From NCBI GenBank assembly GCA_020850695.1, contig JADZEF010000066.1, forward strand, positions 1 to 36,238: a DNA stretch of 36,238 nucleotides, given 5' to 3'. The DNA is from Planctomycetaceae bacterium (GTDB lineage: Bacteria > Planctomycetota > Planctomycetia > Planctomycetales > Planctomycetaceae). The notes under the pieces were generated by a model. It ran no database searches. It saw nothing but the letters and a program-made list of their open reading frames with translations, and was not told the DNA's origin. Made by a program: the position numbers and the translations under genes. Shown in pieces: positions 1,296 to 36,135 of the stretch (the first letter of the stretch is position 1; every line of letters begins with the position of its first letter).

Positions 1296-1451
1296 GATCT
1301 CGACTCCGCTGAGCGTAATAAGGCCATCGGACTCCTGAAATAGATGTTTTATGGATTTTTTTCGTATTACGCAAGTTGTTGTCACGGTTGGCGTTCTGCG
1401 GCCAGTTGCGACCTATTTTTTGTATGTCTTCAAAATATTCACAAAATGCGA

Positions 1452-1480
1452 TTGACGAACGGCCGACAGAACACAATTAT
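1452..1480 (+). promoter_or_regulatory. Candidate promoter of the DUF932 operon
   Basis: TTGACG at 1452-1457 (5 of 6 to the -35 consensus), a 17-base spacer, then AATTAT at 1475-1480 (4 of 6 to the -10). It lies in the AT-rich, gene-free stretch 1296-1580 between divergent operons. The overlapping palindrome TTACGTAA (about 1483-1490) is a possible operator. Assigned by eye from consensus only. Confidence 0.4.
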
Positions 1481-1511
1481 GTATTACGTAAACAACACAC
1501 AAACGAACAAA

Positions 1512-1540
1512 GCCGCAGCGGATCACTACTCCGCTGCGGC
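1512..1540 (+). promoter_or_regulatory. Hairpin in the leader of the DUF932 gene
   Basis: A perfect 11-bp inverted repeat (GCCGCAGCGGA / TCCGCTGCGGC) with a 7-base loop lies 40 bases before the DUF932 start. No T-run follows on the plus strand, so it is not a standard terminator. It may stabilise the leader mRNA or be a protein-binding site. Confidence 0.5.
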
Positions 1541-1580
1541 CTCTAACCTCCCCCGGTGCTACAGGAAAGGCTGGTCGATC

Positions 1581-2549
1581 ATGGCTCACGAAATCTCCAC
1601 GGTCAACGGGACTGCCGAAGCGTTCTTCGCTCTCAAACCGGCCTGGCATGGCCTCGGCGCTGTCCTGGACCACGTGCCGACGTCTGAGGAAGCGATTCAG
1701 GCCGCTCACCTTGACTGGCGCGTTGCGAAGGTTCCGCTCAAGACGGATGAAGGGACCGACGTGGCCGACCACTTTGCCACGGTTCGCCGCGACACCGGCG
1801 CTGTGCTCGGCGTCGTCTCCGGAAAGTACAGCATCGTGCAGAACCGCGAGGCGTTCAGCTTCCTCGACTCGCTCCTGCAGGACGGATTGATGCGGTACGA
1901 ATCCGCCGGCGCTCTCCGTGGCGGCCGCGTCGTGTGGCTCCTGGCTCGCCTGCCGTCGGTGGACACGATCGCTCCCGGTGACAACACCTTCCGCTACGTG
2001 CTGTTCTCCACGTCGCACGATGGGACCGCCTCGATCCATGCCGTGCCGACGTCCGTGCGGGTCGTGTGCGCCAACACGCTCCGGATCGCTACCGCAAAGG
2101 ATGTCGGCTTCCGCCACACCGGCGACGTCAAAACGAAGATGGATTTCGCTCGGAAGTACCTCAGCCAGTTTGACTCCGCCTTCACGCTCTTCCGCGATAA
2201 GGCCCAGACGCTCGCCACCCGCCGTTTCTCAGTTGACCAGTCGAAGGAATACATCGCCGCTCTGTTCCCCGAAGTGAAGGACCGCGGCCGGTCGCAGTCG
2301 ATTCGTGACCGCAAGGTGAACGACGTCCGCAAGGCCTTCCGCGCCGACCGCCAGAACATCGCGAGCATCAAAGGGACCTGGTGGTCGCTGTTCAACGCGG
2401 TGACGGAATCGATCGACCATACCGACCGTGGCTTCCGCGGTGCTGACCGCCGCGCCAAGGCCGAAAGCAAGATGCTCTCGAACCTGGACGGACAGGGAGC
2501 GGACTTCAAAGCGAAGGCCTTCGAGCTCGCATTGTCGATGTCGACCTGA
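1581..2549 (+). CDS. DUF932 (phage/plasmid-like) protein
   Basis: 322 residues starting MAHEISTVNGTAEAFFALK, with AGGAAAGG about eleven bases upstream. An in-frame open stretch extends further upstream but through AT-rich non-coding DNA with the hairpin, so I reject longer starts. It matches the DUF932 / TIGR03299 'phage/plasmid-like protein' family: KPAWHGLG near the N-terminus, then GKYSIVQNREAFSFLD, then the central VPTSVRVVCANTLRIA. The family is widespread in phages and plasmids and has no established biochemical role. First gene of a plus-strand operon (1581-4306) running opposite to the main early block. Confidence 0.9.
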   Translation: MAHEISTVNGTAEAFFALKPAWHGLGAVLDHVPTSEEAIQAAHLDWRVAKVPLKTDEGTDVADHFATVRRDTGAVLGVVSGKYSIVQNREAFSFLDSLLQDGLMRYESAGALRGGRVVWLLARLPSVDTIAPGDNTFRYVLFSTSHDGTASIHAVPTSVRVVCANTLRIATAKDVGFRHTGDVKTKMDFARKYLSQFDSAFTLFRDKAQTLATRRFSVDQSKEYIAALFPEVKDRGRSQSIRDRKVNDVRKAFRADRQNIASIKGTWWSLFNAVTESIDHTDRGFRGADRRAKAESKMLSNLDGQGADFKAKAFELALSMST

Positions 2550-2559
2550 CGGACGCCGG

Positions 2560-2925
2560 ATGCAGCTCGACTTCCTGCTATCCCCGCTGGCCGACGCGGC
2601 GGGGAGTGTTGGACGCCGACCGTTCAAGCCGTCACTGGTCACTCTGAAATGCGTCATCGGCCCGGACGACGACGGCAAGCCGTGTCTGACGATCATGCTC
2701 CCCAATCAGGACTGTGATGCCATGGACCGCGAAACCAAGGCGAAACGCATTGCCTATCTGAAAGACCTGATCCGTCGCCACGAGTCGGAATACCCGCGCA
2801 TCGTCGATTGCGTAGTCAACGGTCGCACCATCGCGACCGCACAAGAAATCAAGCTGACGTGCATCTGCATCATCAGCGAGGCCCGCGCCAAGCTGGCCAA
2901 ACTCGACCGCCGATATTCCGTCTGA
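2560..2925 (+). CDS. Hypothetical protein of the DUF932 operon
   Basis: 121 residues from ATG 2560. A start at ATG 2722 (MDRETKAKRIAYLKDLIRR) with AGGA upstream is a real alternative and would give 67 residues. The C-terminal half is helical and charged (AYLKDLIRRHESEYPRIVD, ISEARAKLAKLDRRY). The N-terminal half reads LVTLKCVIGPDDDGKPCLTI, a plausible beta segment. No family recognised. It starts ten bases after the DUF932 stop, consistent with co-transcription. Confidence 0.6.
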   Translation: MQLDFLLSPLADAAGSVGRRPFKPSLVTLKCVIGPDDDGKPCLTIMLPNQDCDAMDRETKAKRIAYLKDLIRRHESEYPRIVDCVVNGRTIATAQEIKLTCICIISEARAKLAKLDRRYSV

Positions 2926-2935
2926 GGCCGCCACG

Positions 2936-3244
2936 ATGCCGACCCCCACTCAATACACCGTCGGCCAATCGCTCATCGTCATCGACGGTCTGCTGCGTGG
3001 CTACGTCGGCGTGGTCCAGATGGTGCTTCCCAGCGGCCCGGAACCGCAGTACCTCGTCGCCGCGACAAACGACTCCCGCTGCCTCTTCAGCGAATCCCGC
3101 TGCCGTCCCTATTCCCCCGAGCTGCAGGCGCAGCTCCAGCACAACGAAAGGTCTCAGCCATGTCCACCCGCATCTACGCTCAGAACTTCGACAGCATCTT
3201 CGGCCGCGAAGACAAGACCGTCGCGAAGACGTCAGCCAAGGTGA
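2936..3244 (+). CDS. Small hypothetical protein, possible KOW-like barrel
   Basis: 102 residues starting MPTPTQYTVGQSLIVIDGLL, ten bases after the preceding stop. The segment VGQSLIVIDGLLRGYVGVVQ followed by EPQYLVAATNDSRCLFSE resembles a small beta-barrel of KOW type, as seen in phage proteins that read 'G..G.V..v'. This is only a resemblance. Its last 28 codons overlap the next gene (start 3160) in another frame and have low-complexity composition there, so the functional part probably ends near residue 75. Confidence 0.55.
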   Translation: MPTPTQYTVGQSLIVIDGLLRGYVGVVQMVLPSGPEPQYLVAATNDSRCLFSESRCRPYSPELQAQLQHNERSQPCPPASTLRTSTASSAAKTRPSRRRQPR

Positions 3245-3588
3245 AGCGGACGGCGAGGAAGCCGCGGACCCGGAAGCCGCTTTCGTGCGAGCCGGCCGCG
3301 CCGAAGCCGCAGAAAGTCGGATCGACGCCGGATGAATCCATCGCCTACCGCGTCTTGCACCTGGTCCAGCAGCACGAAGACAAGCGGGCCGCGGCCAAGG
3401 AGCTTTACGCCGAAGCGGAGCGACTGGAGATGCAGATTCAGGACCTGATCGGAATCGAGAAGTCGATCGCTCTCCCGGACGGCCGCACCGCTCGAATCGT
3501 CGACAACTTCCGCGACAAGCACGGCCAGCCAAAACGGACTGCCTACCGCGTGTGCGGAGTCAGCCTGACCGAGCTCGCCGTGAAGTGA
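3160..3588 (+). CDS. Hypothetical phage protein with basic N-terminus and coiled coil
   Basis: 142 residues starting MSTRIYAQNFDSIFGREDK, with AAAGG eight bases upstream. Residues about 20-50 are a Lys/Arg/Pro-rich linker (AKVKRTARKPRTRKPL). Residues about 62-100 are helical and coiled-coil-like (LVQQHEDKRAAAKELYAEAE). The C-terminus has beta character (LPDGRTARIVDNF, TAYRVCGVSLTEL). The layout recalls small phage proteins that coat or protect DNA, but I make no family assignment. Confidence 0.65.
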   Translation: MSTRIYAQNFDSIFGREDKTVAKTSAKVKRTARKPRTRKPLSCEPAAPKPQKVGSTPDESIAYRVLHLVQQHEDKRAAAKELYAEAERLEMQIQDLIGIEKSIALPDGRTARIVDNFRDKHGQPKRTAYRVCGVSLTELAVK

Positions 3589-11234: not shown

Positions 11235-11713
11235 CGCGTCGGCGCTCCTTCCTTCCACAAGCTCGGTTCGAGGTCGTATCCCAGGTACAGCGGGTGGCCC
11301 GGCTCGCCGCTGTCGTTCACCTTCAACGCGTGAAGCCGGCAGTGCTGCAGCAGCTCGAGCACGTGGCGGGAGCGGCCGCGGTGACTGCCGGGCTCGCCCC
11401 ACCCGCATACGACCATCCGGGACTGATCGACCGCCTCAAGGATGTACCGATCGTTGTCGGCCCCCACGGGCTCATCAGCGGCGAGCATCCCGGCCGGGTC
11501 AGTCGAGCGCCACGCGAAGAGGTTGACGACCAGCATCGAGCGGAAGCCCATCGTGCGGGCCCGGACCGAGCACCGTTTGACGGTCGGATCATCCTTCGAC
11601 GCGTCGGCCGTCGACGGATTGAGCAGCAGGAACGTCACCGTGCCCTCGCCGGTCAGGTAATTCCGCCGGAGGAGATACCGGTATCGCTCGCAGTCTGAGA
11701 AAACGGCACTCAC
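11231..11713 (-). CDS. DUF1643 protein
   Basis: 160 residues starting MSAVFSDCERYRYLLRRNYL. Family motifs are clear: FLLLNPSTADASKDDPTVKR, then MLVVNLFAWRSTDPAGM, then PVGADNDRYI and VVCGWGEPGS. DUF1643 proteins occur in phages and bacteria and are compact alpha/beta proteins of unknown activity. Conserved Asn/Asp residues suggest nucleotide or nucleic-acid binding. Coupled by four-base overlaps to the ATPase gene upstream and the 35-residue membrane gene downstream. Confidence 0.85.
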   Translation of the reverse strand: MSAVFSDCERYRYLLRRNYLTGEGTVTFLLLNPSTADASKDDPTVKRCSVRARTMGFRSMLVVNLFAWRSTDPAGMLAADEPVGADNDRYILEAVDQSRMVVCGWGEPGSHRGRSRHVLELLQHCRLHALKVNDSGEPGHPLYLGYDLEPSLWKEGAPTR

Positions 11714-13476
11714 GCCAGCACCTCGGGAAAGAGGAGTTCGGTTGCGGCCACGCGGCCGGGGGATGGGTAGCGGATCAGTCCGAGACCGGAGAGGCGGCTC
11801 ACGTCGTTCGCGAAGCTGGACGACCCAGGCGAGACCCCAGCTGCGCCGGCCAGTTCCTCTCGGGACAGTTCGCTCGGATGGGCGTTGATCACCGCGTCGA
11901 GCAGACGGATGTGCGCGGGCCGCAATGCTGGCGAGCGCCGCCAGGACGCATGCAGGTCCGAGATGCTCAGCGGCTCCGCTGGCGCGTCCGCGATCTCGAG
12001 ACCAGCATCGGTGATCGCCATCGAGCCCGACCGCGGATACGTCACCAGTCCCAGCGACGACAGGCGGGACACGTCGTTTGCGAACGAGCTCGACTTCGGG
12101 GAGACGCCAGCAACCGCTGCGACGTTGTTGCGTGCTGGCTGATAGATGCCGACGGTCGCGAGCCAGGCGAGGGCGTTCAGGATCTTGCGGTGAGCGGGAC
12201 GGAGTTCGGAATAATTTCCCGCATAATTCGCACCCGTTTTTGACACCGGTGGTGCAGTCCTCGGAGCTGCCTTGGGTTGCGGCTGCTTCGAAACGTGCCC
12301 GTTCGTCGTTGGAGCGGCTGTGGACAGCGGCGCGACCTTCGTCCCGGACAGCTTCTGGCCCCCCTGATCGATCTTTTCGCGAAGGCCGTCGGCCTCGCGA
12401 GCGATGCGGATGAGCGGCGCGTCCGCCTCGGCGAAGATCCTGCTGATCTCGCGGTAGGCTTCCCGGGCGCCCTCTTGCTTCGCCCGCTTCAGGGCCTCGG
12501 GATCAACGGCTGGCTGATCCTTCGCCTTCAGCTGTTTCTCGAGATCGGCGATCTTCTTCCGCAGCTCCTTCGGATCGTTCGATTTGGCCGCTTCGACGCT
12601 GGCCTGCATCTTCGCACCGAGCGCCTGCAGGTCGACCGCCGCCAGGTGCTTCGGCGTCTTCCGGCTCTCGCCCGCTTTCGGCGTCGCGCCGCTGTCGAAT
12701 GTCTTACGCTTCCGGATCGTCACCTGTCGCATCTGCCCCAGCCACCCGGGGGACCAGAACCACGCCTCGCCGATCGGCAGGGACGGCAAGGTATCGGAGA
12801 TGTGATCGAGGTCCGTCGGATCGGCATGGACGCCGACCCATTCCCGAATCGCGTCGATGTCCTTCGGATGGACCATTCGCAGCACGAACAGGCTCTCGCA
12901 CTGCGTCAGGACATTCTTGTTGAGAACCGCCGGCCGCTGAGTAATCAGCGTCAGCCCGAGCCCGCGGATCCGCCCCTTCTTGCAGCAGTCTTCCATGGCG
13001 CCGCACAGCCGAGCCTCGTCGCCCATTACGCGTTGCGGAGCGAACGTGTCGGCCTCATCGACGATGATGTGCAGGGCCTCGCGGTTCAGGCGATAAAGCG
13101 TCTCGAGGAAGGCCGTCATGAACCGGTTGGCCTGCCCCTTCCGAAAAAGCGATAGGTCGATAATGGCCGGGAACCGGTTCTCAACAATCGACTGAGCGAC
13201 GACTTCGCCCGCGTGCTCTTCAAGAGGCAGATCGCCGTGATCCCCGCCCAGGACGACAATCGGGAAGCCCGCTTTCTTCCCGTCGGCCGACGATCGCAGG
13301 CCCCAATGAGCGCCGGTCGGGTCGATGATCACCACAGGCTGGCCCGTCTGGAGCATCTCCTCGGCGATTACCGCAGCGGTGTAGGACTTGCCCGCGCCCC
13401 GCTTCGCCAGGATCGCGAACGTCTGCGTCACCGCGTCGGCCGGAAGCGACAGGTCTTTCGAAAGGCTGAGTTTCAT
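11710..13476 (-). CDS. HerA/FtsK-like ATPase with tandem winged-helix C-terminus
   Basis: 588 residues starting MKLSLSKDLSLPADAVTQTF. Walker A is AKRGAGKSYT (Lys30) and Walker B is LHIIVDEADTFAP (Asp140-Glu141), with LGLTLITQRPAVLNKNV as the following sensor-like strand. This is the HerA/DUF87 branch of the FtsK-HerA hexameric DNA translocases. After about residue 290 come a Lys-rich coiled coil (KKIADLEKQLKAKDQ) and two homologous winged-helix units. Each starts LRPAH and contains GVSP(K/G)SSSFANDVSRLS followed by GL(V/I).YP. HerA usually works with the NurA nuclease in end resection, but no NurA-like gene is present. Alternatives are plasmid-type mobilisation or a packaging-type ATPase. The start is divergent from the plus-strand gene at 13538. 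Confidence 0.85.
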   Translation of the reverse strand: MKLSLSKDLSLPADAVTQTFAILAKRGAGKSYTAAVIAEEMLQTGQPVVIIDPTGAHWGLRSSADGKKAGFPIVVLGGDHGDLPLEEHAGEVVAQSIVENRFPAIIDLSLFRKGQANRFMTAFLETLYRLNREALHIIVDEADTFAPQRVMGDEARLCGAMEDCCKKGRIRGLGLTLITQRPAVLNKNVLTQCESLFVLRMVHPKDIDAIREWVGVHADPTDLDHISDTLPSLPIGEAWFWSPGWLGQMRQVTIRKRKTFDSGATPKAGESRKTPKHLAAVDLQALGAKMQASVEAAKSNDPKELRKKIADLEKQLKAKDQPAVDPEALKRAKQEGAREAYREISRIFAEADAPLIRIAREADGLREKIDQGGQKLSGTKVAPLSTAAPTTNGHVSKQPQPKAAPRTAPPVSKTGANYAGNYSELRPAHRKILNALAWLATVGIYQPARNNVAAVAGVSPKSSSFANDVSRLSSLGLVTYPRSGSMAITDAGLEIADAPAEPLSISDLHASWRRSPALRPAHIRLLDAVINAHPSELSREELAGAAGVSPGSSSFANDVSRLSGLGLIRYPSPGRVAATELLFPEVLA

Positions 13477-13537
13477 GGGATGCTTAGAGTTCGACCGACA
13501 TCTGGATTTCGGTCCACTCGATCCGAAGAGGACTTTT

Positions 13538-14137
13538 ATGGACGACAACGCCCTGTACTACACACTAAGCACAATCGCCCAGACTATCGCGTCTGCCTTT
13601 GGCGTGATGGCGGCGTTTGCATTGTTCAAGACGCAGACTTTCGACTCGATTGAGGCATTGGCGAAGCTCACTGTGAGAGAGCTGGAGAGATTCGGAATGG
13701 ACCCAGTGCAAGCTGTCCTCATCGCAAGACGAGAAGGATTCCAGGGAATTGACGCTCATCTAAAGCAGCTTGAAGAAGGCAACAACACCAAATATCAGAG
13801 GACGAACGACCTCATGATTGCGTGCTCGCGCCTAGCGAACATTCATCGGTTTAAGACTCACTTGCTCCGCCGTATTTGGAGGGCTGTGCACTGGGTCGCA
13901 TGGAGCATCATGATCTGTCTTGTATGTCTTCCCTTGGTTCCTTTAGTTGCAAAGCACTGGATTCCCTATTGGCTGATGATTGTTACTGTATTGACTGTGG
14001 CGATGAATACGGTTTTCTTATTCATTCGCTTGATTCGTGATCTTGTTGATGACGACTCCTTTTTTCGGTCAGTTTCGATTGAAGATGCATCGGAGCGCAA
14101 AGACGGTTGGTGGTTTACTTCGCCTCAGCGGGATTGA
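13538..14137 (+). CDS. Three-span membrane protein, probable moron
   Basis: 199 residues starting MDDNALYYTLSTIAQTIASA, with AGAGGA just upstream. Three hydrophobic segments: about 9-30 (IAQTIASAFGVMAAFALF), about 125-146 (AWSIMICLVCLPLVPLVA) and about 151-174 (LMIVTVLTVAMNTVFLFI). The first two are separated by a roughly 90-residue cytoplasmic-type domain (VRELERFGMDPVQAVLIARR). It is read against all neighbours, is visibly AT-richer than they are, and overlaps the stop of the methylase tail-to-tail by 23 bases. These are marks of a later-acquired gene expressed on its own, such as a superinfection-exclusion or host-fitness gene. No family recognised. Confidence 0.7.
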   Translation: MDDNALYYTLSTIAQTIASAFGVMAAFALFKTQTFDSIEALAKLTVRELERFGMDPVQAVLIARREGFQGIDAHLKQLEEGNNTKYQRTNDLMIACSRLANIHRFKTHLLRRIWRAVHWVAWSIMICLVCLPLVPLVAKHWIPYWLMIVTVLTVAMNTVFLFIRLIRDLVDDDSFFRSVSIEDASERKDGWWFTSPQRD

Positions 14138-16205
14138 CCCTTGCGGCCCGTGCACAGATCGCTGCCTCGACCCGCCGCGACGAATAGTTCGCCCGAACAA
14201 CCGCCGACACGACCTGCGGACACACCGAGTTTCCACAGCGTCCCACCTGCTCCGACTTCGTCGCCGGCTTCCCATTGAGCCCGACGTCGATCCGATACGA
14301 ATCGGGGAAACCTTGCGCCCGGAACAACTCCCGCGGCGTCAGCATCCGCATGCCGATATCGACGATCTGGAAGGGCTCCCCGCCGACCAGGACGATTCCA
14401 AGAGCCAAGCGATCCTTGACGGTGATCGTCGGGCAGGGTGCCCCCATCCCACTCCACGTCGAGTTGCCGTAGTAGCCCATCAGAAACGCGCGGACCTCTG
14501 CAACGCGGGTCTGCACAACGGCGTGATGCGTCCCCTGGGAGACGATCGTCCGCAGCGGTTCGTCGACTGCGAACGCCTGCTTCCCGCCATGGTTGTTCTT
14601 GATGAGCGTCGCGGCGACGAGCTGGTTTTGAGTGCCGCGGGTCGTGATTGTCGGGAAGGGATGAAACGCAGGGATTCCAACCATGCCGCCGAAGTGCTTG
14701 GCGATGAATGCAGACACCAGGGCGTGCTTTCCGCCGCCGGCGACTGCTGTCCCGAGCGGCCGGTGAATGTCCAGGCATCGCGGTGACTGGCCCGGCCGTT
14801 CGCCGTAGCCCGTTTGCACCAACGTCGGAGCCAGCAAGGCGAACCGGTTCTCGGTCGTCTGGGTCGCGAGCGGCATATCGAGCGATCGCCCGCGGTGGCC
14901 GTCATCGCCCTCGCGCGGCCCGTAGTACGCGACCAGGGCAGGAGCGACGACAAGATTGCAGTCCTTTCGGCTCGCGGTGATCGTGTGCGTCGGGCTGTCG
15001 ATCGAGCGGGTGAGTCCGCCATTCTGGAGGGCAGCAAGGTACGGAGCGACCAACGCCCGACGATCATCCTTCATGACGGTGCCAAAGGGTTGGTCCAACC
15101 GCACAGGCTTCGCGGAATAGACCGGGCCGCCGGCACCGACGACGTACGGAGTCACCAATCCGTAGCCATGCTTTTGAGTCACCGTCGACAGCGGCAAATC
15201 GAGCGGCTGGCCGCGGAAGTGCTTCCCGCCGTGCTGCATGTTGACGATGAAGGGATTCGGATTGTCGATCACATAGCGACGGATTCCCTCGGCGATCCGC
15301 TTCAGCGTCTTCTCTTTCAGCGGCCGTTGGACGACGACGCCAGCCGCCTTCGCTTCCTCGCGTGTGCAGAAGATCGACGGACAGGGCAGATCCCAGTCGA
15401 TGATCTCCGCCGCGGTCCGCCACTTCTGCAGGTTGCATCGGTGGTATTTCTTCAGCCTCCGGGCGATCTCCTTTGGGCTGCCGTGCGTCTCGGCCGGCCA
15501 GACGATCGGCTCGCCGTCGCACCGGGCGATCAGGAAGAGACGCTTTCGTGTCGTCGGGCTCCCATAGTTGGACGCGACCAGGACCTTCCACTCGACCTTG
15601 TAGCGCAGTCCTTCGAGGATATGGAACTGCTCGATGTCTTCCCCGAGGTACTCCCGCATCTCGGCCACGATGTCCGGCTCGCTGTCGACGCCGCATTCCA
15701 GGGCCGCCGTGAAGGCGCGAAACGTCTCGCCCTTCCGCTCCTCGATGGGATTCCCCTTCTCGTCCAGCGGGGCCCACGTGACGAACTCTTCGACGTTCTC
15801 CAGGAAGATCACGCGCGGCCGGACGCGGGCGGCCCACCGGAGCACGATCCACGCGAGGGCCCGCATCTTCCCGTCTTTCGGCTTGTTTCCCTTCGCCTTC
15901 GAATGGTGCGTGCAATCCGGAGAGAACCATGCCGCGCCCACAGGTCGACCGTCGGTGACTTCCTCCGGGTCGACGTCCCACAGGTTTTCGCAGTAGTGGT
16001 GCGTCTCGGGATGGTTCGCCAAGTGCATCGCGATCGCCGCCTTGTCGTGATTGATCGCGACGTCTGGCGCGCGGCCGGTGGCCATCTTGATGCCGAGGGA
16101 CGCCCCACCGCCGCCGGCAAAGCAATCGACGAAGATCTCCTCGCCGTTCCGCAGGGCGTCCTGCGTCTCATCGAACCACATCCAGCGTTGTCGGTACTGA
16201 CGCAC
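14115..16205 (-). CDS. C5-cytosine DNA methyltransferase with long repetitive recognition region
   Basis: 696 residues from a GTG at 16205 with AAGGGA seven bases upstream. TTG 16277 and ATG 16181 are alternatives. Motif I is FVDCFAGGGGASLGI (about 25-39). The catalytic Cys98 lies in FSPDCTHHSKAKG, an unusual form of the PCQ motif. ENV is at 136-138, and TTRKRLFLIA is motif VIII-like. QGFPDSYRI and GRCGNSVCPQ are motifs IX and X at the C-terminus. Between about 335 and 615 lie roughly eight imperfect repeats of the form 'hD.P..TIT......LVaP.l' (for example LDLPLSTVTQKHGYGLVTPY). It would methylate cytosine in phage DNA to avoid host restriction. Confidence 0.88.
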   Translation of the reverse strand: MRQYRQRWMWFDETQDALRNGEEIFVDCFAGGGGASLGIKMATGRAPDVAINHDKAAIAMHLANHPETHHYCENLWDVDPEEVTDGRPVGAAWFSPDCTHHSKAKGNKPKDGKMRALAWIVLRWAARVRPRVIFLENVEEFVTWAPLDEKGNPIEERKGETFRAFTAALECGVDSEPDIVAEMREYLGEDIEQFHILEGLRYKVEWKVLVASNYGSPTTRKRLFLIARCDGEPIVWPAETHGSPKEIARRLKKYHRCNLQKWRTAAEIIDWDLPCPSIFCTREEAKAAGVVVQRPLKEKTLKRIAEGIRRYVIDNPNPFIVNMQHGGKHFRGQPLDLPLSTVTQKHGYGLVTPYVVGAGGPVYSAKPVRLDQPFGTVMKDDRRALVAPYLAALQNGGLTRSIDSPTHTITASRKDCNLVVAPALVAYYGPREGDDGHRGRSLDMPLATQTTENRFALLAPTLVQTGYGERPGQSPRCLDIHRPLGTAVAGGGKHALVSAFIAKHFGGMVGIPAFHPFPTITTRGTQNQLVAATLIKNNHGGKQAFAVDEPLRTIVSQGTHHAVVQTRVAEVRAFLMGYYGNSTWSGMGAPCPTITVKDRLALGIVLVGGEPFQIVDIGMRMLTPRELFRAQGFPDSYRIDVGLNGKPATKSEQVGRCGNSVCPQVVSAVVRANYSSRRVEAAICARAARVNPAEAK

Positions 16206-16315
16206 TTTGAGTTCCCTTCGATTGGCTTCAATAAAACTGGCGGTTTGCTCGTTCGATTCGATCGATCTATGCTGCAATGAGCTTTTTGATATCCGCCTAC
16301 TTTCCGAGGAAGACG

Positions 16316-16558
16316 ATGAACGTCCGCGACTGGATTGCCCGGCTCCAAAAGTTCAACGGGGATGAGCCAGTCGTGTTGACGTGCGAGGATGCGAACATTC
16401 GCGGTGAAGGACGGTTATTTCGACTGTTCGATATCGACGACATTCAAATCACAGAGGGGCAACTGGTTCGAGGTGACGACGGCATTCCCTCAGTCAAGAT
16501 TGGTCGATCGAGCGACTCACAGTCCATTTGCGCAATTGATATCACCGCAGACTTCTAG
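16316..16558 (+). CDS. Small hypothetical protein, probable moron
   Basis: 80 residues starting MNVRDWIARLQKFNGDEPVV, with GAGGAAG four bases upstream. An ATG at 16277 is in frame but would overlap the divergent methylase leader. Sequence has an N-terminal helix and then alternating beta (VVLTCEDANIRGEGRLFRLF, IPSVKIGRSS, ICAIDITADF). The segment pattern resembles small phage proteins that begin 'M.V..wI..L.....d..V'. It is divergent from the methylase and converges on the DUF5131 gene so tightly that the two stop codons overlap. No function assigned. Confidence 0.6.
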   Translation: MNVRDWIARLQKFNGDEPVVLTCEDANIRGEGRLFRLFDIDDIQITEGQLVRGDDGIPSVKIGRSSDSQSICAIDITADF

Positions 16559-17622
16559 GACTGATTCGCCGGGAATTGACGCACGCGGAGATCTGCGGGC
16601 CACTCGTCCCAGTCCCCACCCTTCGAGTCCTTCAACGTGACGATCGCCACGTCGTGGCCATTGCCTTGCCGGAAGGAGACTTCGCCCGGGAACTGGTCGA
16701 TCGGGTCGATGGCGTTCTCCGCCCGGATGACGGCACCGAGCTGTTTCACGAAGCACGGCACGCCGGCGGCCGCACACTGTGCGACGATGTCACGAATCCA
16801 GGCGATGTCGCATGGCCGGGCTCCGTGGCCGCTCTCACCCCCGACGATGACCCAGCCGATCTGCGGTTCTTCGTGGAGCTTCGACTTTCGACGCCAGGCA
16901 CCGTTGCGATCGCGCTCGATCGCCAGCCACTGTGCGAGATCCAACGGACCGAGCAGCGGCTCGCACGAAAGGAAGCGAACGGCCGCGGGGCACTGCACCA
17001 AGTGCGGGATCCGCTCGTCGGCCCGCTTCTGATCTTCGACGCTGGTACCCAGCCAAACGCACGGGAGTGGCCACGGACGGTCCGGAAACGCGTTCGCCAG
17101 CGTGTGCGAAACTCCGGCCGCCACAACCTGATGCCTGCTGAGGTGCCGAAGATTCAGCACGTCGGACGGCGCGAACTGTCCGTTCGCCGCCTTCGGCTTC
17201 CAATCGTCAGCGGCAGCCTGAAGTGCAGCGAGGTATCGCTCAGCGCGGTCGATCCGCTTCGTCAGGACCTGATGTGTGTGCTGCATACTGAGAGCCATCG
17301 CAGCGAAGCATTCATCGATCCAGGCATCCGGTACCCAATGACCGAACATGTCGGTCATGTCGCACCAGAACCACTTCGTTGGCTTCTTTCGCTTCGTGAC
17401 CTCCCGAAGTTTTGTTGGATCCAAAAAGTGCTCGACTTGGTCGAAGTACTGCCCCCCGCCGAACGCCGGCATGTGAAAGCGCTTCTGAAAGTTTGAGCTG
17501 TAGCAGTTCGTGCAACCGCCGCTGATCTTCTCGCAATAATGGCCGACTGCTCCCGTCTCGCGATGCCGGGCGCGAAGGGGGTTGATCGACATGTCGGTCC
17601 ACTCGATGGTTGTCTTTCCCAT
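16555..17622 (-). CDS. DUF5131 (phage Gp37/Gp68 family) protein
   Basis: 355 residues starting MGKTTIEWTDMSINPLRARH. The family opening 'T.IEWTd.S.NP' is followed by a Cys cluster YCEKISGGCTNCYSSNF (Cys spacing C-x5-C-x2-C). Then come the conserved KWFWCDMTDMFGHWVPD, VLTKRIDRAERYL, VWLGTSVEDQKRADER, RFLSCEPLLGPLDL and GWVIVGGESGHGARPCD. The three-Cys cluster and fold signature resemble radical-SAM-like enzymes, but the activity of the family is not established. A second, divergent member is at 35371-36135. The start overlaps the RusA stop in a TGATG arrangement. Confidence 0.88.
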   Translation of the reverse strand: MGKTTIEWTDMSINPLRARHRETGAVGHYCEKISGGCTNCYSSNFQKRFHMPAFGGGQYFDQVEHFLDPTKLREVTKRKKPTKWFWCDMTDMFGHWVPDAWIDECFAAMALSMQHTHQVLTKRIDRAERYLAALQAAADDWKPKAANGQFAPSDVLNLRHLSRHQVVAAGVSHTLANAFPDRPWPLPCVWLGTSVEDQKRADERIPHLVQCPAAVRFLSCEPLLGPLDLAQWLAIERDRNGAWRRKSKLHEEPQIGWVIVGGESGHGARPCDIAWIRDIVAQCAAAGVPCFVKQLGAVIRAENAIDPIDQFPGEVSFRQGNGHDVAIVTLKDSKGGDWDEWPADLRVRQFPANQS

Positions 17623-18035
17623 CACTTCCCCCCAAACAGAGACGGTTGCGGATCTGGAATCTTCTCAATCGTCACCAGTAGCTCGCCGCCCTTTTTCACT
17701 GTGCCGCGCTCGATCGTGATGCGGTCGATCAATCCGTCGTCGGTCCAGACGTCGCAGTGAGTGAGGGCATCCTCGGTGGCCTTGAGCAAGTTCGAGAGGT
17801 CCCTGGTTCGGCGGTCCGGGACGTTGGCCACGATGGTGACGGCGAGACGGCAATCCAGCGGCCGGATTCTTCCGAACCGGTGGAGAATGCGAGCCTCGAC
17901 TGCGTTCTGAAACTCCTTGGCCCGCGCCGTCAGGTACGTGCTGACGAACGGCTTCCCCTGCCGCGGGAAGATGATTCGGTTGCCCCAGTAGTGGTTCGTC
18001 GACGGGGGCCAAGGAAGGGATATCGTCACGCTCAT
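17622..18035 (-). CDS. rusA: RusA-like Holliday-junction resolvase
   Basis: 137 residues starting MSVTISLPWPPSTNHYWGNR. The RusA hallmarks are PPSTNHYW at the N-terminus and RRTRDLSNLLKATEDAL with VWTDDGLIDRI. The acidic residues Asp79, Asp89 and Asp99-Asp100 would form the metal site. The position usually filled by a second Asp in 'RDLDN' is Ser81 here, a variation I cannot judge without an alignment. RusA proteins are dimeric endonucleases that cut four-way junctions arising from phage replication and recombination, consistent with the clamp, exonuclease and annealing genes upstream. TGATG overlaps on both sides. Confidence 0.88.
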   Translation of the reverse strand: MSVTISLPWPPSTNHYWGNRIIFPRQGKPFVSTYLTARAKEFQNAVEARILHRFGRIRPLDCRLAVTIVANVPDRRTRDLSNLLKATEDALTHCDVWTDDGLIDRITIERGTVKKGGELLVTIEKIPDPQPSLFGGK

Positions 18036-30991: not shown

Positions 30992-31083
30992 ATCAAATTG
31001 TCTCAGGCCTCGGCGATGCGTGGTCGCCGCAAACGCTTGAGAAATAACAACATCAGTAAGGCCGCGAGTCGGTTTTCAGGGCT

Positions 31084-31125
31084 TTGACATCGTGGAGGTC
31101 ACTGGTTCGAGTCCAGTATCGCCCA
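31084..31125 (+). other. Integrase attachment core: 3' half of a tRNA-Val(GAC)-like gene
   Basis: The 42 bases read as the second half of a tRNA: anticodon loop TTGACAT, 3' anticodon strand CGTGG, variable loop AGGTC, T-arm ACTGG-TTCGAGT-CCAGT, acceptor strand ATCGCCC and discriminator A. The 5' half (expected GGGCGAT... and CCACG) is absent; unrelated sequence lies to the left. Tyrosine integrases commonly recombine from the anticodon loop to the 3' end of tRNA genes, leaving this kind of fragment. It is either the attP core of the element or the displaced end after integration. Confidence 0.75.
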
Positions 31126-31320: not shown

Positions 31321-32058
31321 TCATCCCCTCTGAAAAATGAGCACCGGTTCGGCCTTCTGGCCCCAGCCAACCCGCTTCCCTTTGATCCTCGCCCCCGGTC
31401 GTCCGGCCAAGAGATACGGGATCACCTTCACCAGCCGCAGCCCCAGACGCTTCGGACAGAACTCGACCAGCCTTTCGATGATCCGAATGCCGAACGTCTC
31501 GTTGTCCGCCACGTTCAGGGCGAGGTGGCCGCCCCTCTTCACGCAGGGCTTCAGATTCCGAAGCGTCCTGAAGAGGAAGCCGTCCAGCCACGTCTCGATC
31601 GTGCTGTACCGCTTCCACGACTGGGTCTGCTGGTCCGAATACCGCTGAAGGTCGAAGTAAGGCGGCGACGTGAAGACCAGATCGACCTCGCCATGCCACG
31701 GCGAGTAGTCCATGTCTTCGGCGGGCTGCCAGACCATCTCCCACGTCTTGCCATGCGGGTGATGCCGTTCGATCCAGCCGAACATTCTCCCGAAGGACGG
31801 CTTCAGGGCCGTGTTCGGGTCGATCCCGACGTACCGCTGGCATCGACTCCCGAAAGAGCCGAGAAAGTTGCCGCCGTATCCTGCTGAGAAGTCGAGGACC
31901 GTGCCGCCGTTCCCGAAGTCGTCGCAGATTGACTGGGCCGCCGTCGGGCGGAACATCGTGGGGATGTGAAGCCGCATCGAGGCCGCTGCATGGGCCGTCA
32001 CCTCGTTGAGGTGTCCCCGCATCAGCAACGCTGTCCGCAGGATCGAGGCCCGCCACAC
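31321..32058 (-). CDS. DNA methylase (TSPPY type)
   Basis: 245 residues from GTG 32058 (VWRASILRTALLMRGHLNEV). Motif I is VLDFSAGYGGNFLGS, then YVGIDPN, and the catalytic motif is VFTSPPYFDLQRYS; GGHLALNVADNETFGIRIIE follows. TSPPY marks amino-methyltransferases (N4-cytosine or N6-adenine). The frame stays open for 34 codons upstream of the GTG, right up to the amber stop of the neighbouring methylase, and those codons look protein-like (LNSWFLEIRNAGAHRSSPSL). The true N-terminus may therefore be longer, or joined to that gene by readthrough. Confidence 0.8.
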   Translation of the reverse strand: MWRASILRTALLMRGHLNEVTAHAAASMRLHIPTMFRPTAAQSICDDFGNGGTVLDFSAGYGGNFLGSFGSRCQRYVGIDPNTALKPSFGRMFGWIERHHPHGKTWEMVWQPAEDMDYSPWHGEVDLVFTSPPYFDLQRYSDQQTQSWKRYSTIETWLDGFLFRTLRNLKPCVKRGGHLALNVADNETFGIRIIERLVEFCPKRLGLRLVKVIPYLLAGRPGARIKGKRVGWGQKAEPVLIFQRG

Positions 32059-32160
32059 GGGGTCAGCCCAAGCCTCATTCAGACTGGGCGACGACCGATG
32101 GGCTCCAGCATTCCGGATTTCCAGAAACCACGAGTTCAGGAATCTGCACCCCAGCCGGGA

Positions 32161-33561
32161 CTACTTCGACGCCTCAGAGGCGATCGGCAGTCCGCCGACT
32201 TCCATATCGGTCTCGACCTCAACACGTTCATCCTCGGAGTCGAGAAAGCGTCTGAAGTCACTTCGGCGCTGGGCTTCACTGACCTGCGGACAAGGGGGTG
32301 CATACCGTTCGCAAACTCTTGCCAGTTCCCCGGCAATCGACGCCATGTCAGCTTCGTCGGATCGAGCGGCGGCGGCGAGGATTGTCCATTCCGGCTTCGG
32401 AATATCGATGAACCGCTCCCCGCAGTACCGATCGAGCCGGGCCAGCACTCTTTCCCATCTACTCGTCGTGCGATCCCTCCGAGGAGACCTCACCCGCACG
32501 TAGAGACTGTCCCGCACCGACTGCGCTTTTGCACCGTTGATTCGAGGCAGGGAAGTCTTGCCGTTCGGAAGAAGAAGATGCTGCACGAAGAGGTCTTCCG
32601 GCACCTCAACCCGGCGGTCTTCCTCTTCGACGAACCCGTCGAGGGAAAGCACATAGTCGCCTTGCTGACGCCTCACCCAGCGGAAGAACTGGTCGAAGTC
32701 GATCCACTTCCCGTAGATGCGACTCTGGTGGCTGGCCCGGTACGGCGGGTCGAGGTAGAGCAGGTCGCCCGGCGACGACTGAATGCGGCGGTAATCACGC
32801 ACGTAGAACCGAACGTCATGCTTTCGTAACTTCCCCGACCAGTCCTCGACGATGCCCTTCACTCGGTCGGGAGTCATTCCTCGGCTGCCGTGGTGATACG
32901 CCGACGTGAACTTTCCGCTCACGTTGAACCGGACGAGGCCGATCCGGCACGTTCGCAGGAGAAGGAAGAAGAGGAGAGGATCGCCGCTCTCGTTGAAATC
33001 GTCTCGAATCGAGTGGTAGTACTTCGCTCCTTTCTCCCCCAGCCGGTGCCACATCTCGTGGTAACTTTCGACGATCTGCCGGGGATCATCCTTCACCAGC
33101 CGCCACAGTCCGATCAGCGGACGGCAGGTATCTGAGCAGCGGAACCGTTCGACGGTAATCCCGGATTCCATGAGCCGGTAAAGCACTGAGCCGCCGCCGA
33201 CGAACGGCTCGAAGTAGGTGGCGATCCGCTTCAGAAATCGTCGAACGATCTCGACAGCTTGTCTCCGCTTGCTCCCCGTCCATTTGATGAGCGCCTGCCG
33301 AGGTGGCGGCGTCAATCGGGAGACCGCCGCTTCATGCCACAGGTCGGCGATTCGCAGGCCGAAGTGCTGGGCCACCTTCTTCAGGTCGGCTTCCGTTCGG
33401 CGGTCAAGTCGGTCGAGCCCTTGATGGCAGAGCCGACGCATCCACTTGTACGAGACGCCGATTCGCTCAGCAGCCTCCCGCTGGTTGAGCCAGTCCCGTT
33501 CGAGCAGCCGGCGCAGATTCCGGCTGAAGACCTCGGCTCGGGTTGAGTCAGAAGTGGACAT
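32161..33561 (-). CDS. Helix-turn-helix fused to D12-class adenine methylase
   Basis: 466 residues starting MSTSDSTRAEVFSRNLRRLL. Residues about 10-75 form a Cro/C1-type helix-turn-helix (LNQREAAERIGVSYKWMRRL, DLKKVAQHFGLRIADLW). The methylase follows: LIKWTGSKRRQAVEIVRRF (motif X), YFEPFVGGGSVLYRL (motif I), and LLYLDPPYRASH (motif IV). A C-terminal extension of over 100 residues (ERVLARLDRYCGERFIDIPK...) is not part of the standard enzyme. Fusion to a DNA-binding repressor-like domain suggests autoregulation or site targeting. Stop is TAG at 32161; the same frame continues into the next methylase. Confidence 0.85.
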   Translation of the reverse strand: MSTSDSTRAEVFSRNLRRLLERDWLNQREAAERIGVSYKWMRRLCHQGLDRLDRRTEADLKKVAQHFGLRIADLWHEAAVSRLTPPPRQALIKWTGSKRRQAVEIVRRFLKRIATYFEPFVGGGSVLYRLMESGITVERFRCSDTCRPLIGLWRLVKDDPRQIVESYHEMWHRLGEKGAKYYHSIRDDFNESGDPLLFFLLLRTCRIGLVRFNVSGKFTSAYHHGSRGMTPDRVKGIVEDWSGKLRKHDVRFYVRDYRRIQSSPGDLLYLDPPYRASHQSRIYGKWIDFDQFFRWVRRQQGDYVLSLDGFVEEEDRRVEVPEDLFVQHLLLPNGKTSLPRINGAKAQSVRDSLYVRVRSPRRDRTTSRWERVLARLDRYCGERFIDIPKPEWTILAAAARSDEADMASIAGELARVCERYAPPCPQVSEAQRRSDFRRFLDSEDERVEVETDMEVGGLPIASEASK

Positions 33562-33636: not shown

Positions 33637-34334
33637 GACACCCACAAGCCCGATGTCGGCCTGATGGCCTGCTGAGAACTCGAAACAGGAGTCACCGATT
33701 CTGCGAAAACTGCCCCAACTTCTGGGAGTGCGGAGTTACGTGGCAAGCGACAACTGCGGACATCGCCCGTCTGGCTCATCGGCCAGCAACACCCACAAGC
33801 CGAGCAGTGGGACCGCACACCGAGGGGACTGAAATCACCGAATGACACCCACAAGTGGAGTGAATCGACCCGGTGGGACATTGCGGGGTCGAAGCCCGCA
33901 ACACCCACAAGATGACAGCCAACCCGACTCTGAGAAAAAGGAGAACAACGAATCATGAACCTGCTGAACGTCGCAGAACTCGTCTTATCACCAAAGGCCG
34001 AAGCCGACCACGAGCCGGTGCGATCAGACAGCCGACATCCACAAGTCGTTTGCACTGAGGGATTCAGTGGCCGAGGTCACTGCGAGACATCCCCAAGAAC
34101 AGAGACTCGCCTCGATCACGCTGTAGTCGAAGGGACGAAGCCCGCAACACCCGCAAGAGGAATGCCCCGCTCCAGCATGAGCGAGATCGAGGTCGGACCC
34201 ATGCAATACCCACAAGGGCAGCGGTCTAACCGTGATCAATGAGTTCAAGGACGAAGCGGGCAACACCCGCAAGAGGAGTGCTCGCCCTCGTCGTGAACGG
34301 GATCAAGGGCGTTGCGGTATCCAACACCCACAAG
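33637..34334 (+). repeat. Interspersed array of RACACCCRCAAG motifs
   Basis: Ten copies of a 12-base motif, all on the plus strand, start at 33637, 33788, 33844, 33900, 34034, 34086, 34146, 34205, 34262 and 34323. Intervals are 151, 56, 56, 134, 52, 60, 59, 57 and 61. Consensus is RACACCCRCAAG (variants GACATCCACAAG, AATACCCACAAG). Three copies (33900, 34146, 34262) share an extended left flank CGAAGCCCGC or close to it. The intervals are not multiples of three, so this is not a coding repeat. Between repeats the sequence differs. It fills the 33562-34439 gap between divergent genes; no other gene is convincing there except the leader at 33955. Confidence 0.75.
33955..34242 (+). CDS. Leader-type reading frame inside the repeat array
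   Basis: Frame starting MNLLNVAELVLSPKAEADHE behind a very good ribosome site (AAAAAGGAG). The first 16-20 residues look like a real peptide; afterwards the frame runs through repeats without protein character. A related sequence occurs at 34356-34410 (AAAAGGAGAA, then codons reading ILLANLIL and a stop) but without an ATG. It suggests a duplicated short leader or a decayed gene copy. Confidence 0.3.
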   Translation: MNLLNVAELVLSPKAEADHEPVRSDSRHPQVVCTEGFSGRGHCETSPRTETRLDHAVVEGTKPATPARGMPRSSMSEIEVGPMQYPQGQRSNRDQ

Positions 34335-35210: not shown

Positions 35211-35310
35211 ACCTCCAGTCAAACCACGCTGAAGCTGACCGGCTCGTCGAAAGCGAGTTCGGACGGGGACGGTCTGCGCCGAGTTGTGCAAATTGATTTC
35301 TGAACCCTCA

Positions 35311-35350
35311 CGTCCGGGCTCGTGCTCGTGGCGAGCCCGGACGTTTCTTC
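35311..35350 (+). terminator. Terminator or attenuator before the DUF5131 gene
   Basis: Perfect 12-bp stem (CGTCCGGGCTCG 35311-35322 / CGAGCCCGGACG 35332-35343), loop of 9 bases, then TTTCTTCCTC. It lies only 20 bases upstream of the DUF5131 start, so it may regulate that gene as well as end the preceding one. Confidence 0.75.
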
Positions 35351-35370
35351 CTCTACGCATGGAGAACTTG

Positions 35371-36135
35371 ATGACACAGAACACCAAGATTCAGTGGTGC
35401 GACAGCACCGTGAACCCCACGATGGGCTGTGAAGGCTGCGAACAGTGGAGCAGCCAGCGGAAGTCCTGCTACGCCGGAATTCTGCACACCCGCTTCGGCG
35501 GCGTGACGAAGGGGTACGCCCCGACCTTCGAGGACGTGACGCAGTTTCCGGGCCGCATGGCTCAGGCGGCGGCGTGGACCGACCTCGCTGGCAAGCAGCG
35601 GAAGGAGAAGCCGTGGCTCGACGGGATGCCTCGGACGATCTTCGTGTCGGACATGTCCGATTCCCTATCGGCGGTCGTGCCCTTCGAGTACCTCGAAGCC
35701 GAAGTCGTCACTCACGTCACCACCGAGAAAGGCCAGCGGCATCTGTGGCTCTGGCTGACCAAGCGTCCCGACCGGATGGCTCAGTTCTCGGTCTACTTGA
35801 AGGAGCGGGGCACGAACTGGCCGAAGAACCTCCGGGCCGGGACGAGCATCACTTCTCAGGCAACGACCAGCCGCACCGACAAGCTGTTGAACGTCGGGAA
35901 CGACGAGACCATCCACTTCCTGTCGGTGGAACCGCAGGTCGAGCGGATCGACTTCAGTCGATGGCTGCCACGGCTCGACTGGCTGATTCACGGCGGGGAG
36001 TCGGGTCACGGTGCTCGTGCGTTCGAGGTGGAGTGGGCGTCAGAACTCATCGGCCAGTGCGATGAGCATGTAGTTCCCTACTTCCTCATGCAACTCGGTT
36101 CCGTCGTCACCGTAACCGTTCACGCCCCGGCGTAG
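35371..36135 (+). CDS. DUF5131 (phage Gp37/Gp68 family) protein, second copy
   Basis: 254 residues starting MTQNTKIQWCDSTVNPTMGC, with GGAG six bases upstream (ATG 35359 also possible). Family features: TKIQWCDSTVNPTMGCEGCE with a Cys cluster (GCEGCEQWSSQRKSCYAG), PRTIFVSDMSDSLSAVVP, WLWLTKRPDRMAQF, LRAGTSITSQATTSRTDKLL, HFLSVEPQVERIDF and LIHGGESGHGARAF. It is shorter and divergent from the copy at 16555-17622 and has a different Cys spacing. The three-Cys cluster suggests a metal or Fe-S site of radical-SAM type; the reaction is unknown. It could act with the neighbouring unrecognised gene. Confidence 0.85.
   Translation: MTQNTKIQWCDSTVNPTMGCEGCEQWSSQRKSCYAGILHTRFGGVTKGYAPTFEDVTQFPGRMAQAAAWTDLAGKQRKEKPWLDGMPRTIFVSDMSDSLSAVVPFEYLEAEVVTHVTTEKGQRHLWLWLTKRPDRMAQFSVYLKERGTNWPKNLRAGTSITSQATTSRTDKLLNVGNDETIHFLSVEPQVERIDFSRWLPRLDWLIHGGESGHGARAFEVEWASELIGQCDEHVVPYFLMQLGSVVTVTVHAPA

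Follow-up and report, generated by a model that had tools for sequence, protein, structure and literature searches.

An amber codon within a D12-TSPPY methylase fusion of a planctomycete, probably a nonsense truncation

Fused methylases and the layout of the gene

Two DNA methylases joined in one polypeptide are known from M.MhoVII of Mycoplasma hominis, in which YhdJ-type and D12 methylases are fused, and from M.FokI, which has two methylase domains in one chain (PMC12898733). The gene described here lies in a 36,238-nucleotide stretch of DNA from a Planctomycetaceae bacterium (hereafter the window) and resembles both in encoding two DNA methylases per polypeptide, one of them of the D12 class as in M.MhoVII. 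However, the D12 part is C-terminal in M.MhoVII, whereas in the window gene an HTH-D12 part is N-terminal, its partner belongs to a phage-type TSPPY family, and the gene is interrupted. Furthermore, a partner nuclease (R.MhoVII) has been shown for M.MhoVII, whereas none was identified beside the window gene: no nuclease was found among the ten window ORFs scanned against Pfam and the five scanned against PADLOC, and the contig ends at 36238. Two-methylase fusions are already known; HTH-D12 combined with a TSPPY methylase of the phage type was encountered nowhere else in this work.

The first half of the gene has a D12 domain with a DPPY motif (Pfam MethyltransfD12, PF02086, residues 94-280; E 7.7e-25, 88.5 bits, cut-off 22), as in the Dam/D12 adenine methylases (TIGR00571, PF02086), and is 56-57% identical in this domain to same-family planctomycete copies. 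It differs from the Dam/D12 enzymes in the N-terminal HTH and the C-terminal fusion, and scores under the curated cut-off of TIGR00571. The second half matches Pfam N6_N4_Mtase (PF01555; E 1.2e-6, 29.1 bits, cut-off 26.7), and its TSPPY motif is conserved. Members of this phage/IMG-VR TSPPY family are normally single proteins of 350-430 aa. Such relatives, e.g., L146, L034, and the bacterial L119, are homologous to the window gene over their whole length, N-terminal domain and TAG site included, and have a sense codon at the TAG position; unlike the window methylase, L146 and L034 stand alone, with no preceding D12.

An earlier note on this DNA had reported that the D12 ORF ends in TAG and that 34 further in-frame codons lead from there into the TSPPY methylase, which we confirmed from the sequence (Table 1). 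Past the TAG, the minus-strand frame is open for 34 codons (SRLGCRFLNSWFLEIRNAGAHRSSPSLNEAWADP) to a GTG at 32058-32056, and no ATG, GTG, or TTG start occurs in that frame between the two. The frame ends with a TGA at 31323-31321, 279 codons after the TAG.

Table 1. Features of the methylase gene and of its surroundings in the window.
Feature	Positions	Strand	Remarks
HTH-D12 adenine-methylase ORF	33561..32161 (ATG 33561 to TAG 32163-32161)	-	466 aa
HTH and D12-class N6-adenine methylase domain	32467..33561	-	ORF residues 1-365, apparently intact
"Tail" at the C-terminus of the D12 ORF, belonging to the second methylase as the N-terminal part of its domain	32164..32466	-	ORF residues 366-466
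In-frame amber codon TAG	32161..32163	-	TGG (Trp) in L119, Trp in L146
34 sense codons 3' of the TAG, same N-terminal domain	32059..32160	-	homology and AlphaFold
Catalytic remainder of the TSPPY (N6_N4_Mtase) methylase	31324..32058	-	Pfam PF01555, family HMM
HerA-like helicase	11713-13548	-	
C-5 cytosine methylase	14118-16277	-	third methylase in the same region
DUF5131 gene	16558-17625	-	TAG stop ending 16555
DUF5131 gene	35284-36132	+	TAG stop ending 36135

Homology on both sides of the amber codon

The closest relative of the second methylase is L119, found in the planctomycete MAG KLAP164, with a frame that is open from the contig start. When the L119 protein was compared with the genome of the window, a single match ran through the site (333 residues, 60% identity, 450 bits) with one TAG inside. 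The earlier note had asked whether the 34 codons after the TAG are conserved, and they are: their residues are 73% identical to L119 (two-sequence BLAST, E 2.7e-14) and 35% identical to L146. The approximately 90 codons 5' of the TAG are also conserved as protein, with the pre-TAG tail being 49% identical to L119 and aligning to the N-terminal part of the phage relative L146 as well. When the window and its two closest relatives were left out of the family HMM, the alignment to the window ran from D12-ORF residue 403 to residue 745 with no break at the stop (E 2.2e-71), and with the family HMM lacking L119 and L146 the pre-TAG tail alone outscored all 3000 of 3000 shuffles.

Homologues of the second methylase begin approximately 80-120 residues before the TAG position, and 232 of the 241 homologous frames extend 60 or more residues upstream of the equivalent position (median 107). 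The phage protein L146, a stand-alone protein of 372 aa beginning with "MDLEHFCGDEFINIPAEEW", has its start aligned to D12-ORF residue ~374, and homology to the N-terminal domain within the D12 ORF runs from about residue 374 to 466. This tail is missing from the D12 homologues that are 56-57% identical (same family, planctomycete), which end at about residue 365. AlphaFold prediction for residues 366-746 read through (21-sequence alignment) gave one compact unit (pLDDT 92.3, pTM 0.89), in which the TAG is model residue 102, within a confident N-terminal domain, and the 34 codons after it have pLDDT above 90. The model matched viral methylase models over the full length of the fold (best TM 0.75), whereas its matches to solved structures of SAM methyltransferases were partial.

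Because homology crosses the stop, the D12 homologues end near residue 365, and the L146 start aligns near residue 374, we conclude that an HTH-D12 methylase and a complete second methylase are fused in frame in this gene, joined at approximately residue 365-374. Judged from the sequence alignments, the second methylase has its N-terminal domain in the last ~90 residues of the D12 ORF. This settles the gene model: automatic annotation would give two genes, and there is really one fused gene with a nonsense codon.

It is very unlikely that the locus makes two separate proteins, with the second methylase reinitiated at GTG 32058 or at another start after the TAG, even though the catalytic core (model residues ~170-381) is wholly 3' of this GTG. 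The start points of the homologues speak against this, and a GTG product would be without the whole N-terminal domain, which AlphaFold models confidently together with the core. The earlier note was right that this GTG has no apparent ribosome site; however, the GTG as a native start did not stand, since it lies ~130 residues inside the normal protein of the family. GTG 32058 was thus rejected as a genuine start; it encodes an internal Val, and a second "gene" beginning there is not real. The outcome by which that note would have dropped its fusion proposal, namely, homologues starting at the GTG with nothing conserved upstream, was absent.

Decoding of the amber codon and constraint on the two halves

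At the site, the codons are ...GCG TCA AAG TGG TCC CGG CTA GGG TGC AGA TTC CTG... in L119 and ...GCG TCG AAG TAG TCC CGG CTG GGG TGC AGA TTC CTG... in the window. The residue in the TAG column is Trp in the phage relative L146 too and varies among more distant members, and a stop at this position was found in no relative examined. Between the window and L119, dN was 0.54 and dS 1.3 before the TAG, compared with 0.20 and 0.60 over the 34 codons that follow it and 0.30 and 1.57 after these; the values indicate that all three stretches were under selection as protein during the history shared with L119, and the stop is not datable from them. A sense codon in relatives and homology on both sides within one domain, as looked for in a nonsense-interrupted gene, were both found. 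The note's proposal that a recent amber mutation broke a fused bifunctional methylase is supported by the single conserved domain around the TAG and by TGG there in L119. The L119 contig begins inside the second domain, so that any D12 upstream would lie beyond the contig end, and a search of KLAP164 for the missing 5' part of the gene returned just an unrelated truncated D12 fragment.

Programmed or leaky readthrough would give a minor long form with both methylases, as may be suggested by a frame that is open and protein-like for 279 codons past the TAG. For amber readthrough, one would look for a stop conserved in relatives and for a suppressor tRNA or a stimulatory context, and neither was found. 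The genome has ~73 tRNA matches, and typing with ARAGORN revealed no amber-suppressor tRNA with a CUA anticodon; the anticodon of one low-scoring candidate that ARAGORN left untyped was read by eye as GUC-like. The base after the TAG is U, and U after UAG has been reported to lower readthrough in E. coli (PMC5289835). An RNA readthrough signal was ruled out, as the RNA 3' of the TAG is not unusually structured (fold z -0.23) and had no Rfam match. Together with the absence of the stop from relatives and hints of relaxed constraint that are confined to the post-TAG part, these findings leave programmed readthrough, the other option of the earlier note, unsupported and very unlikely. That low-level readthrough yields a little HTH-D12-TSPPY double methylase, such that one gene sets the ratio of single to double specificity, is likewise very unlikely. 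Global recoding of TAG, against which the earlier note had also argued, is out, since TAG is the ordinary stop of other window genes, e.g., the DUF5131 genes, and no CUA tRNA was found. As a separate observation, tRNA-gene arrays like those of large phages or mobile elements occur elsewhere in the genome, with 12 genes in L274 (G000:C40:9000-13000) and eight in L275 (G000:C123:3500-5500); the covariance scores of some of these genes are low.

For constraint, near-invariant positions of the post-TAG half were defined as those conserved in at least 90% of 60 non-redundant family members. Five of these 32 residues are changed in the window (Y546C, R565N, E639Q, I684V, and K745R), compared with none in L119 and L146; an equal or greater deviation was found in only two sequences, both from distant phages. 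In the D12 half, one of 24 near-invariant residues is changed. A relative-rate count pointed in the same direction (25 vs 17) and was not significant (p 0.28). Judged from these residues, it looks as if the second methylase is already decaying under relaxed constraint. Against decay, two of the five losses are conservative and the excess is modest, the 279 post-TAG codons are free of further stops and of frameshifts, and both catalytic motifs, DFSAGYG and TSPPYF, are retained.

These signs of an intact enzyme, namely, the otherwise intact frame and the kept catalytic motifs, could also reflect an error in the sequencing or assembly consensus, or a minor strain variant, in which case the true codon would be TGG and the fused enzyme functional. 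The TAG differs from the L119 codon by one base, and the assembly is fragmented (440 contigs). However, the five residue losses would be unexpected in a working enzyme, and single-base substitutions in the consensus are uncommon in short-read assemblies. We consider such an error unlikely, and infer that the loss is recent and real. Truncation with early decay is preferred over readthrough and sequencing error because of the evidence from tRNAs, stop context, RNA structure, and residue losses. The best explanation is thus probably a real nonsense truncation of a D12-TSPPY fusion in an integrated planctomycete element, with its second half decaying.

Mobile-element context, distribution, and implications

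Just beyond the end of the second methylase lies a sequence resembling the 3' half of a tRNA (TGGAGGTCACTGGTTCGAGTCCAGTATCGCCC, 31070-31125, +), which, from its sequence, is probably an integration (att) site. From this adjacent tRNA-like 3' half and from the phage-like genes nearby, the region is presumably an integrated element. In L119, a T-arm-like stretch (1030-1060) directly follows the methylase and is in turn followed by a large recombinase-like ORF (1387-3378). In the ~700 bp that precede the D12 gene, nine copies of ACACCCACAAG (at most one mismatch; 0.3 expected by chance) lie 56-151 bases apart at 33638-34334 (+); this may be a binding array for a regulator or the HTH.

The second methylase is rare in planctomycetes: its 279 post-TAG residues were found in no other genome among 197 relatives, there were no close relatives in the same taxonomic family, and no second copy exists elsewhere in the genome. 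The family is common in phage contigs, with at least 346 relatives confirmed in one scan, and single-protein viral scans using the window's proteins returned no relatives. Among the loci fetched, no ORF was matched by both halves, and the D12-TSPPY fusion was seen in one genome. Another genome of the phylum encodes a 706-aa protein (L008, 151-2271) in which an HTH/homing-endonuclease-like sequence is fused to the same TSPPY family, indicating that this methylase family is also found fused to other N-terminal parts.

In the proposed sequence of events, a planctomycete integrated mobile element would have carried an HTH-D12 methylase fused in frame to a phage-type TSPPY methylase of ~370 aa, and a single G-to-A change would have converted a Trp codon of the second enzyme's N-terminal domain from TGG to TAG. 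Translation would halt there, giving a 466-aa protein with a complete D12 methylase and a useless partial second domain, and the second methylase would be unmade or made in traces alone and be under relaxed constraint. The protein is presumably truncated in the cell and its D12 methylase presumably still works, possibly, to judge from its family, in sequence-specific 6mA methylation, self-protection, or regulation through the HTH.

The HTH-D12 and phage-type TSPPY fusion, seen just here, extends the set of known methylase fusions in a small way. For studies of recoding, the locus is a useful negative: it is probably a case of ordinary gene decay rather than a new decoding trick, and an open frame past a stop, even one encoding conserved protein, can be fresh gene decay.
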